Origin: Armatimonadota bacterium
GTDB lineage: Bacteria; Armatimonadota; UBA5829; DTJY01
Assembly: GCA_017993055.1 (NCBI GenBank)
Contig: JAGONM010000013.1
Span: 1 to 64,000 of the forward strand
Direction: 5' to 3'
Length of the DNA stretch: 64,000 nucleotides
The position numbers were made by a program, and so were the translations under genes. Positions 15,278-64,000 of this stretch are shown here, piece by piece. How positions within the stretch are numbered: position 1 is the first letter of the stretch; each line of letters starts with the position of its first letter. The notes beneath the pieces are model-generated. The model was given only the letters and a program-made list of their open reading frames with translations. It made no database searches and was not told the DNA's origin.

Positions 15278-15294
15278 TGCAAGAATCGTGCCAA
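15278..15294 (-). promoter_or_regulatory. Sigma-54 promoter upstream of the PEP-CTERM gene
   Basis: The minus strand reads TTGGCACGATTCTTGCA, an exact fit to the -24/-12 consensus (YTGGCACGR-N3-TTGCW). It points at the PEP-CTERM gene, giving a predicted leader of about 284 bases from +1 near 15267. Its twin is at 61809-61825. From memory, PEP-CTERM expression in Zoogloea needs RpoN and the PrsK/PrsR pair. Confidence 0.75.
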
Positions 15295-60995: not shown

Positions 60996-61592
60996 CTAGA
61001 GATGCATCGCGGTGCGGATTTTCGTCCGCCCGGCGGTTGCGATGCCCGAAGCCACAACCGCTTTGAGCAGGTCAACCCCGATGAACGGCGCGACACCCAT
61101 CGCCAAGACGGCTTCGATCGTGAGCGGCGTCGATGTGAACAGCGCCATCCACACGCTCAGCCAACCGGCGCCGCAGGCATAGATCGCGCAGACCCCGGCG
61201 ATCCCGGCAACCCAGGCGCCCGACCTGCTGCGCGCTCCAAGCTTCTCGAAGACCCATCCCGCGACAAACGCCGCCGGCACGAATCCGACCAGGTAGCCCG
61301 CCGTCGGGCCGAAGAACGCAGTAGGCCCGCCGTTCCACTGAGCGAAGACCGGCATCCCCAGGGCGCCGACCGCGAGGTACTGCATCTGGCTGATCGCCCC
61401 CCATCGGCTCCCGAGAACCAAGCCTGAGAGAATCACGGCGAGCACCTGGAGAGTCACCGGCACCGGCGTGAACCCTAGCGGGATCGCGACTTGGGCCGCA
61501 ACCGCCGTGATCCCGGCGAAAGCGAGCGAAACCAGCAACTTCCCGTGAATCTCTTCCCTGCGAAGGGCGGATGCCCTGAAGTGAACTCCCAT
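60996..61592 (-). CDS. bioY: BioY biotin transporter, ECF S-component
   Basis: 198-residue membrane protein with about six spans, the substrate-binding subunit for biotin uptake. Landmarks: VAIPLGFTPVPVTLQVLAVILSGLVLGSRWGAISQMQYLAVGALGMPVFA and GPTAGYLVGFVPAAFVAGW (given here in parts of the second and third spans). ATG 61592 has GGAGGAG five bases upstream; further in-frame sequence belongs to the leader. No ECF ATPases (EcfA) or BioMN are adjacent, so it uses a shared module or works alone. It has its own sigma-70 promoter at 61649-61678. Confidence 0.92.
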   Translation of the reverse strand: MGVHFRASALRREEIHGKLLVSLAFAGITAVAAQVAIPLGFTPVPVTLQVLAVILSGLVLGSRWGAISQMQYLAVGALGMPVFAQWNGGPTAFFGPTAGYLVGFVPAAFVAGWVFEKLGARSRSGAWVAGIAGVCAIYACGAGWLSVWMALFTSTPLTIEAVLAMGVAPFIGVDLLKAVVASGIATAGRTKIRTAMHL

Positions 61593-61648: not shown

Positions 61649-61678
61649 ATCATACCGAATGGAACAGGCCGGTGTCAA
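61649..61678 (-). promoter_or_regulatory. Sigma-70 promoter of bioY
   Basis: TTGACA (61673-61678), 18 bases, TATGAT (61649-61654). It lies downstream of the terminator at 61691-61723, so bioY does not depend on the sigma-54 transcript. Confidence 0.85.
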
Positions 61679-61690
61679 ACGGGGAGCAAA

Positions 61691-61723
61691 AGAAAAAGCC
61701 CGCTGGGGTTTGAGCCAACGGGC
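61691..61723 (-). terminator. Intrinsic terminator of the putative sigma-54 small RNA
   Basis: 9-bp stem GCCCGTTGG/CCAGCGGGC (61715-61723 with 61698-61706, one G-U pair), followed by TTTTTCTTTT on the minus strand. Confidence 0.85.
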
Positions 61724-61798
61724 CTGCGCGCCGCGGGCCTAGCCATCCCCGACGCGTCAAAAGTGGTAAGGAAGGAGAAAGAGATGCTACTTACCAGG
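61691..61798 (-). ncRNA. Putative sigma-54-dependent small RNA
   Basis: The predicted +1 is 61798, 12 bases after the -12 C of the sigma-54 site. The transcript is about 108 nt and ends at the terminator. Near its 5' end, UGGUAAG (61796-61790) pairs with CUUACCA (61770-61764). The loop is pyrimidine-rich (UCUCUUUCUCCUUC) and complementary to purine-rich ribosome sites such as GGAAGGAGAAAGAGA. A GC-rich middle part follows, then the terminator. No sizeable reading frame is seen on this strand. Confidence 0.55.
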
Positions 61799-61808
61799 TG
61801 GTACTACC

Positions 61809-61825
61809 TGCAAGATTCGTGCCAA
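61809..61825 (-). promoter_or_regulatory. Sigma-54 promoter
   Basis: The minus strand reads TTGGCACGAATCTTGCA, an exact match to the -24/-12 consensus. It differs from the site upstream of the PEP-CTERM gene (15278-15294) by one base in 17 and shares the flanking T before and G after. Confidence 0.78.
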
Positions 61826-61878
61826 ACCGCCGGATTCGTTCGAGAAACCTGAAAAAAGTGCGTGAGGCTTGACTCGCT

Positions 61879-64000
61879 TCAGTACTGTACTCGGACTTCG
61901 ACGGGACCGGTCAAGCGCGGCATCTCGACATAGTCGCGGGCAAACCGTTGGTGCGCCCGGCCGTTGACAGTGACCGATCGAATGGGCAGGTCGTCCGGAT
62001 GGCGAAGGCGGATTCGGACCCGGTCGGGCGGCCGAAGCTGCGGAGGCGTGAGTCTGATTTCGATCAAGCCTGAGTGACTTTGGGAGACGATCTCGAAGGA
62101 GACCTCCCCGAAGCGCGTCGGGGTTTCCTCTACCTGCACGACCTTGCCGTCCTCGAGCCACGCGCGCGGGATCGCGTCGCCGATCAGCAGCGAATCCTCA
62201 TCCTCGCGCAGGAGCATCATGCGGAGGAGCTTCAATTGCTGGGTGTTCGAGTAGAGATGCGGAAGCGTCCAGTAGTTGTTGCCGGTCACGATGCCCGTAC
62301 ATTCGACACCGGAGTATGTCTCGCGGGTCATCCCATAGGCCAGCATGCCGTAGAAGCCGAGGATGACCTTGCGCGCGTCATTCCGCTTGAGCTGAGTCAG
62401 CAGATAGCCGTAGGTGTAGGCGTGGTCTATGCCTCCGGACTGGAACTTGCACAGCCCGGCGATAAGGCCGTTTCGCTGCTCCATCAGGTCCGTCACCCAC
62501 CACGCGCGCCTGTCATCGGCAGGAATAAGCTCGTTCTCCAACATAGAGGAAGCAACGAGACCATAGTAGTCGCCACCGGTGTAACGGCTGTCCTTCAGCA
62601 GGCGGTGGGTTTCAGGCTCGAGTGGGAGCATCTTCATGCCGTCCTTCTCGATCACGGCTCTCTCCATGGAAGCCATGATGTCGGCCCGATAGCGGACGGC
62701 CTCGTCGCCGAACTTGCGGGCCTGGTCTGTCATTCCAAGGGCATCGAGGGCGACGGCGGCCTTCGCCAGCCCGACGGCACAGTAGGAGTCTGAGTAGTAG
62801 TCGTACACCGGCTCGGCATAGTCGCAGTACGCGCGGAACTTGATCAGCCCGCGGGTGACGCCGGTCTTCGGGGCATCGTTTCGCCTGCGGATCAGCCACT
62901 CACCGGCGCGCACGATGTTGTCGGAGACTCGCTGCAGCCAGACCTTGTCGTCGGTATAGTTGTAGTGCTCGGCCAGTGCGAGCAGGAGTCCGCCGGTGTC
63001 CGGCAAACCGAAGTTCTGCGTGTACAGGCCGTCCGGCTGTTGGAAGTGCAGGAGTGTATCGAGATAGCGCTCGGCCTGATCGTGCATGCCGTACATGTCG
63101 AGCATGATGCAGTAGAGCGCGGCGCTGTAGCCGTAGATCTCCTCGTAGAAGCCTGTGCCGTCGCGCGGCTCCGGGTAGCCGTTGACCTTGTCCACGTCGA
63201 GCAGCGAATATGCCAGCCACGCCTTGTACGCGTCGTTTACACGCTTCTCCGGGACCTCGATGCGCTCACCCTGAGCGAGGACCTTGCGCCACGAGTCGGC
63301 GTACTGCTTCAGGGTGCGGCCGTACTCGTCCGACGTGATGGGGACGGGAGCGTCGGCGCTTGGGAACGGCATGCTGATGCAGCTCTCTCCGCCGGTCATC
63401 GGGAACTCGGTCCGCCTGCCGGTCGAGTCCGACACGAGCGTCACCTTACCGGGCAGCTTGCTGCCTCGCGCACGGAGCCGGACGTAGGCGAAGAGCGGCG
63501 CGTCGGGGCTGAATCCTTCCGACCAGCCGAAGACGGTCAGCTCGTACCGGACGCCGCCGTGCTCGGTCGTGAGGATGACGGCGGGTATCCATCCGTCGAG
63601 GAGCTTGCGGGTGATCGGGGTCTTCTCGTCGCCGAACGGGATCGGTGGATCGCCAATCTCGAGCCGGGCGATCAGCGGCGTGTTGTAGTTGAGCTGCAGG
63701 CGGCCGAGGTAATCCACGCAGATGTCCACCGGATGCTCGGGCACTCCGACCGCCTCCTTGGGGTACTTCATCGGCGGGTAGTACCTGGAGATCCGCTCGT
63801 AGGAGACGTCGCCCTTGCGCGCAAGCTCGATCCTGCCGACCGGATCGAGGCCGATCTCCGCCCGCTCTCTGCGCTCGGAGTCGGTCAAGGCCAGCAATGC
63901 GGCAGGAGTCTCCTCCACAGCTATGTCGGCGATGGACGAGACAACCCTCGGCCCGCGGTCGGAGTAGTCGTTGTCGAGGTCCTGGGCGGGGTAAGCATCC
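61879..64000 (-). CDS. Six-hairpin-type glycosidase-like protein, N-terminus beyond the window
   Basis: At least 707 residues; the reading frame remains open to the last base (upstream of the GTG at 63918 it reads DAYPAQDLDNDYSDRG), so the start lies outside. An N-terminal beta-sandwich region is followed by an (alpha/alpha)6-like barrel (about 235-590 counted from 63918: WLAYSLLDVDKVNG, GFYEEIYGYSAALY, RYLDTLLHFQQPDGLY, QSGGIDHAYTYGYLL, GIVTGNNYWTLPHLYSN) and a C-terminal beta domain. This layout is that of six-hairpin glycosidases such as rhamnosidases and glucoamylases. Catalytic residues cannot be named and no exact GH family is recognised. It is the only gene near the putative sigma-54 promoter on its 3' side. 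Confidence 0.7.
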   Translation of the reverse strand, partial: DAYPAQDLDNDYSDRGPRVVSSIADIAVEETPAALLALTDSERRERAEIGLDPVGRIELARKGDVSYERISRYYPPMKYPKEAVGVPEHPVDICVDYLGRLQLNYNTPLIARLEIGDPPIPFGDEKTPITRKLLDGWIPAVILTTEHGGVRYELTVFGWSEGFSPDAPLFAYVRLRARGSKLPGKVTLVSDSTGRRTEFPMTGGESCISMPFPSADAPVPITSDEYGRTLKQYADSWRKVLAQGERIEVPEKRVNDAYKAWLAYSLLDVDKVNGYPEPRDGTGFYEEIYGYSAALYCIMLDMYGMHDQAERYLDTLLHFQQPDGLYTQNFGLPDTGGLLLALAEHYNYTDDKVWLQRVSDNIVRAGEWLIRRRNDAPKTGVTRGLIKFRAYCDYAEPVYDYYSDSYCAVGLAKAAVALDALGMTDQARKFGDEAVRYRADIMASMERAVIEKDGMKMLPLEPETHRLLKDSRYTGGDYYGLVASSMLENELIPADDRRAWWVTDLMEQRNGLIAGLCKFQSGGIDHAYTYGYLLTQLKRNDARKVILGFYGMLAYGMTRETYSGVECTGIVTGNNYWTLPHLYSNTQQLKLLRMMLLREDEDSLLIGDAIPRAWLEDGKVVQVEETPTRFGEVSFEIVSQSHSGLIEIRLTPPQLRPPDRVRIRLRHPDDLPIRSVTVNGRAHQRFARDYVEMPRLTGPVEVRVQY

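Follow-up and report, generated by a model that had tools for sequence, protein, structure and literature searches.

The window analysed here, a 64,000-nt stretch of Armatimonadota DNA, contains one member of a so far undescribed family of small RNAs. Computational comparison shows that the family has multiple copies, some of them in tandem, and is found only in genomes of a single Armatimonadota class that contain sigma-54; that its members are transcribed is inferred. What is conserved among them, as likewise shown computationally, is complementarity to a translation start region, comprising the Shine-Dalgarno sequence (SD), the spacer and the AUG. Judged by sequence, the best-matching targets of the family are mRNAs encoding PEP-CTERM proteins, a statement made without RNA-less control genomes and from which regulation can only be inferred. 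The likely reading, to which we assign a probability of about 0.72, is that sigma-54-induced sibling RNAs act in trans and repress PEP-CTERM translation. Transcription, the role of Hfq and the direction of regulation are inferences, and no RNA-seq, 5'-end or repression data support them.

The window copy and its predicted RNA

The window is contig C13 of genome G000 (3.7 Mb, 82 contigs). A reading made from the sequence alone had proposed that three elements share one strand: a sigma-54 promoter, a terminator and, for bioY, a sigma-70 promoter of its own. All three were found where it had placed them, except that the -24/-12 element, claimed for 61809-61825, ends at 61824 (Table 1). With two mismatches allowed, the sigma-54 pattern occurs at chance level in the window; exact matches alone were counted. 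The proposed 108-nt RNA holds as a prediction of about 109 nt, its start being placed 12 nt beyond the -12 C. Its predicted fold (-42.2 kcal/mol, z -1.9) has two hairpins, one at the 5' end and one in the middle, followed by the terminator. The gene downstream, which we take to be bioY following the sequence-only reading, encodes a product without any NCBIfam match. On the other side, a gene for a 679-aa protein (61879-63918, minus strand) terminates shortly before the small RNA; it shows weak similarity to TIGR01577 (oligosaccharide amylase), far below the cut-off, and has no match in the G002 and G004 loci.

Table 1. Features of the small-RNA locus in the window
Feature	Position	Strand	Basis or remark
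Sigma-54 promoter TGGCACGAATCTTGCA (-24/-12)	61809..61824	-	Exact match; kept before bioY in G002 and G004
Predicted small RNA, about 109 nt	61690..61798	-	Promoter geometry, terminator and family search; no transcript data
Conserved core CAUCUCUUUCUCCUUCC (target-pairing tract)	61770..61786	-	Reverse complement of SD-spacer-AUG; alignments
5' hairpin, arms 61790-61796 and 61764-61770	61764..61796	-	Predicted fold of the window copy; pairing not kept in the family
Middle hairpin with conserved UGGCUAGGC loop	61727..61756	-	Specific to the bioY-linked copy; orthologs in G002/G004
Intrinsic terminator, then U tract	61696..61725	-	11-pair stem; kept in orthologs
Separate sigma-70 promoter of bioY	61649..61678	-	TTGACA-18-TATGAT, 11/12; same layout in G002/G004
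bioY	60996..61592	-	tblastn 53-54% identity in G002/G004, E 1e-54 and 2e-53
22-codon ORF, opposite strand	61784..61852	+	Not accepted as a gene

In G002 and G004, which represent another genus, orthologs of the window copy immediately precede bioY, and the order of promoter, tract, UGGCUAGGC-loop middle hairpin, terminator, sigma-70 promoter and bioY is kept. Every tested pair of the middle hairpin and the terminator is maintained in these orthologs. In the middle hairpin, one pair has changed in a compensatory manner (C-G to U-A) and another differs as C-G/U-G, and the terminator shows one-sided G-U changes; taken together, both elements give one compensatory and three one-sided changes. Since the one-sided changes include G-U pairs, this pattern fits an RNA on the minus strand, yet the support is modest because only two distinct sequences were available. 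That the unit keeps its place before bioY in G002 and G004 would also fit a leader or auxiliary promoter of this gene, acting through sigma-54 read-through into biotin uptake or in the manner of a riboswitch. However, the terminator and an independent sigma-70 promoter stand between the two, and the other fetched loci that carry family copies gave no match to bioY. Consequently, we regard this explanation as very unlikely.

The 5' hairpin folds in the window copy as the sequence-only reading had described, but its stem is not conserved. Compensatory changes, which would have supported it, were not detected: among 17 sequences of the family, no covariation was seen in the 5' stem, slid controls performed equally well, and the 5' pairing of relatives uses another register. 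Conserved instead are the tract and the spacing of the antisense AUG. The conserved core AACAUCUUUUUCUCCUUCC is the reverse complement of SD-spacer-AUG, and in most members CAU follows 6-8 nt from the SD complement. Thus the claim that the CU tract is complementary to ribosome-binding sites held and could be extended to SD, spacer and AUG together.

Read on the plus strand, the same tract is GGAAGGAG-N6-ATG (61784) followed by 22 codons, and the sequence-only reading had left open that this strand might be the functional one. If so, the locus would be a small protein gene and the minus-strand match merely its shadow. The open reading frame is present, and SD, a spacing of 6-8 nt and ATG are kept on the plus strand in most of 27 copies. 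However, the peptides are wholly different, ranging from 5 to >30 codons, three listed copies lack a start, and the frame shifts relative to the conserved sigma-54 box. In addition, promoter, terminators and U tracts are all oriented along the minus strand. Since length, frame and sequence of the peptide change from copy to copy, we conclude that the RNA strand is under selection; the peptide was rejected and this alternative is all but excluded.

Copies and distribution of the family

Across the whole genome G000, the exact pattern TGGCACN5TTGCW occurs 21 times, compared to 3 matches of a reversed control pattern. A random scatter of the sigma-54 match, which together with a missing transcript would have refuted the sequence-only reading, was thus not observed. 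Five units in which the promoter is followed by CUCCUUCC at a distance of 15-45 nt are present in this genome, and three of them, each of which contains GCAACATCTTTT(T)CTCCTTCC together with a terminator, stand in tandem at C18:30238-30700. Several of the 21 sites thus precede predicted short RNAs of this kind instead of genes, another one lying at C1:28392; a further copy, whose promoter is not clearly recognisable, is located at C60:1977. In all, the genome holds the five units and two related RNAs. With the same spacing, the unit occurs 22 times in 10 of 61 genomes (own genome included), and every reversed control gave 0. Hence what had been proposed as a single sigma-54-driven terminated small RNA with an anti-SD tract is supported and turns out to be one copy of a class-wide family, in which promoter and tract are conserved together.

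The sequence-only model R1 matches 21 of the 28 genomes of the class. In a sample of 201 phylum genomes, 19 are matched at a threshold of 1e-6; all 19 belong to the class, and the sampled genomes outside it gave no match. As R1 includes the promoter, some other sigma-54 promoters may be among its weakest matches, and we rely on matches above about 40 bits. Named records that contain the unit are MAGs of Armatimonadota/Armatimonadetes or unnamed bacterial bins. A search of Rfam 15 gave no family match: at the gathering score the window yields tRNAs only, and relaxed settings add sub-threshold hits. Pattern matches in Ottowia, Sulfuricurvum, Clostridia and Lachnospiraceae were rejected, as the remainder of the unit is not resembled there. 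A viral presence was rejected as well: 39 pattern matches in viral contigs correspond roughly to the chance expectation by our estimate, and none of the inspected viral matches with a nearby T run contained the whole unit.

The occurrence of the RNA follows that of sigma-54. G000 encodes an RpoN above the TIGR02395 cut-off. The RNA is absent from all five class genomes that lack both rpoN and a PrsR-like hit (G001, G010, G013, G021 and G025), and it is missing wherever rpoN is missing, except for weak matches in G011, a 69%-complete genome. G012 and G019 are RpoN-positive, yet the model search of the class genomes revealed no RNA copy in them.

Other RNAs of similar build were observed as well. 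Two more types of sigma-54-driven CUCCUUCC RNAs (UACUCUACUCCUUCC and GCGCAACUCUUCUCCUUCC) are conserved between genomes and lack the antisense AUG (loci L001 1501-1660, i.e., G000 C1:28392, L037 and L027; L028 and L036). A sigma-54-driven terminated RNA at L012 1501-1516 (minus strand; G000 C18:49102) carries a different pyrimidine tract, UUUUCUUCUUUCCUUUCG, which likewise favours PEP-CTERM start regions.

PEP-CTERM start regions and the proposed circuit

A search of G000 with GAAGGAGAAARAGATG, in which up to two mismatches were tolerated, hit 11 places besides the RNA genes. At four of these 11 (C9:84780, an exact match, C11:59057, C53:9555 and C77:1690), a spaced SD suggests a true start site, and all four belong to PEP-CTERM genes above the TIGR02595 cut-off, whose products combine a signal-peptide-like start with a PEP-CTERM tail. 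We then compared the pairing of start regions with the RNA between PEP-CTERM genes and genes with hydrophobic N-termini, applying one simple start caller of our own to all. PEP-CTERM genes paired better in G000 (35 vs. 355 genes, AUC 0.81, p 7e-10), in G002 (6 vs. 88, AUC 0.88, p 1e-3) and in G008 (26 vs. 78, AUC 0.815, p 8e-7). For G008 the family consensus core was used, which has one U more than the genome's own copy. An earlier comparison with less uniform start calls agrees. Neither PEP-CTERM genes nor genomes are phylogenetically independent. The envelope link suggested by the sequence-only reading is supported by this target signal.

One might argue that the RNAs are general anti-SD RNAs that damp translation globally, and that the PEP-CTERM signal merely reflects strong, purine-rich starts. 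In favour of this view, the core includes CUCCUU, PEP-CTERM starts of G000 are also somewhat better matched to the 16S anti-SD (AUC 0.71), and many non-PEP genes are found among the top 30 pairing start regions. However, 16S anti-SD pairing barely separates the gene classes in G008 (AUC 0.55), and the PEP-CTERM signal remains after 16S pairing is regressed out (p 3e-8 and 3e-16). If CUCCUU is kept and its flanks are shuffled, discrimination falls, with 0 of 60 shuffles reaching the real value in G000 and 2 of 60 in family f3. Furthermore, a second box pairs outside the SD in a lineage-matched manner. We thus consider a general anti-SD function unlikely. It remains possible that PEP-CTERM start regions are purine-rich for reasons of translation alone, as no RNA-lacking members of the class were compared.

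This second box, UUAAAGUGUUGUGGUUUA, is shared by the f3 RNAs and lies 3' of the tract. Unbiased enrichment of 6-mers at -70..-12 was computed for PEP-CTERM genes from six f3 genomes (82 after removal of redundancy), with background genes from G008 only. The enriched 6-mers, the top ones including AAACCA, CCACAA, CACAAC, ACAACA, CAACAC, AACACT, CACTTT and ACTTTA, tile TAAACCACAACACTTTA, the complement of the second box. A second-box 6-mer is present in 33 of 82 PEP-CTERM leaders vs. 20 of 215 others, and none of 500 shuffled second boxes was as good as the real one. The f1 genomes, whose RNA lacks the second box, showed no enrichment (2/34 vs. 46/867 and 0/6 vs. 17/216). Leaders of G016 and G022 carry a CACAACAC box. 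The two pairing parts are in antiparallel-correct order, and the resulting bipartite duplexes have predicted energies of -22 to -40 kcal/mol. Since SD strength cannot produce a lineage-matched pattern of this kind, we regard it as the best argument that the base pairing is real.

If the pairing is real, its consequence still has to be inferred. The RNAs might act on PEP-CTERM mRNAs as activators or stabilisers, or mainly sponge another RNA or Hfq, given that pairing in a 5' UTR can also open structures and that some f3 targets have the paired box at a considerable distance upstream of the SD. However, the best-conserved pairing spans SD and AUG, and such alternatives therefore appear unlikely. 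Pairing of an sRNA over SD and AUG normally blocks initiation. In the repression model that we favour, an NtrC/PrsR-type activator together with RpoN would turn on the small RNAs, which, probably with Hfq, would pair with the start region of PEP-CTERM mRNAs; binding of the 30S subunit would be blocked and less exosortase-sorted surface protein would be made. Hfq is present in 24 of the 28 class genomes. Activators of NtrC type and PrsR-like activators occur in class genomes, but PrsR exceeds the curated cut-off (TIGR02915, 502.6) in none of the 28, the best hit reaching 434 bits, and the activator is consequently not identified.

Sigma-54 promoters of the same kind also precede PEP-CTERM genes themselves (L004, L006, L007, L013, L016 and L018). 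In G000 such genes pair more weakly with the RNA than other PEP-CTERM genes (-14.4 vs. -20.7 kcal/mol, p 0.03, five genes only), and the same holds for f3 (-21.2 vs. -24.8, p 0.05). This suggests, albeit weakly, that the RNAs silence the remaining PEP-CTERM genes. The probable net effect would thus be a shift between sets of PEP-CTERM proteins, because other PEP-CTERM genes use sigma-54 promoters and pair less strongly. A bolder reading is a surface-coat switch, in which one sigma-54 activator would induce one PEP-CTERM set and the RNAs would silence the sigma-54-independent set, with RNA boxes and mRNA leaders co-evolving in each lineage; here the balance tips slightly against it.

Several observations touch on this circuit. 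The second exact sigma-54 site of the window (15278..15293, minus strand) precedes a PEP-CTERM gene by about 280 nt (ATG 14983, minus strand, 266 aa, C-terminus PIPEPAPIVALAAGLLPLLASFRRRT); both arms of the proposed circuit are thus present in the window. Many class genomes encode two rpoN paralogs, one of which adjoins a full-length PrsR-like activator gene (G004:C1:570289-574290, G002:C7:36086-40087, G014:C174 and G015:C172), and a sigma-54 factor dedicated to PEP-CTERM control is conceivable. Imperfect dyads, for example CTGGTAATTTTACCGG or TACCAGTATTTATACTGGG, are repeatedly seen immediately 5' of the -24 box (L064, L065, L016, L055 and L076). They might represent an activator site, although their count is dominated by tandem sRNA sequence. 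Finally, at L002, L009 and L017 (G000 C1, C18 and C26), copies of one secreted-protein family are preceded by near-identical sigma-54 promoters and 5' ends.

Significance and relation to known systems

If the repression model is true, a whole class of surface proteins, with tens of genes in many class genomes, would be under one RNA-level control, built as the antisense of a common start-region design. The lineage-matched boxes of RNA and mRNA would then be a natural record of RNA-target co-evolution, and one could test directly in this system what triggers PEP-CTERM regulation. In the open-access full texts searched, no small or regulatory RNA was described for Armatimonadota, and PEP-CTERM or exosortase and small RNAs were co-mentioned only, without any such RNA being described.

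The protein side of the circuit has a known counterpart. For the PEP-CTERM/EpsH regulon with PrsK-PrsR, sigma-54 sites upstream of PEP-CTERM genes were reported in Proteobacteria, along with a few before other genes (Haft 2006, PMC1569441), and pepA is RpoN-dependent (PMC9850573). Sigma-54 sites before PEP-CTERM genes are found in the Armatimonadota class as well, which differs in that it lacks a PrsR above the curated cut-off.

On the RNA side, CcsR/'cuckoo' and related anti-SD sRNAs of alphaproteobacteria are tandem or multi-copy and carry pyrimidine anti-SD stretches (CCUCCUCCC loops); motif, promoters and phylum differ from those of the Armatimonadota RNAs. The Qrr small RNAs of Vibrio are sibling sRNAs (PMC4211561). 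They are sigma-54-dependent. Both systems comprise several closely related sRNA genes with a common pairing core and activation by a response regulator, LuxO in the case of Qrr, whereas the activator role is inferred here. In contrast to Qrr, the Armatimonadota RNAs belong to another phylum, have another core, lack an Rfam match and are often tandem. Furthermore, Qrr targets quorum-sensing regulators, while the RNAs described here match PEP-CTERM start regions.

In principle, the nearest known system is CJnc230 of Campylobacter jejuni, an RpoN-dependent sRNA of 98 nt with a single-stranded anti-SD motif (PMC11187230). It differs in being encoded downstream of flgE and in its short CCUU motif (PMC11187230), and the relevant sections of that paper mention neither an antisense AUG nor a second box like those of the Armatimonadota RNAs. 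The likeness lies in the logic of the circuit: CJnc230 acts within the very gene system that its sigma factor serves, the flagella (PMC11187230), as the Armatimonadota RNAs would do within that of the PEP-CTERM proteins.
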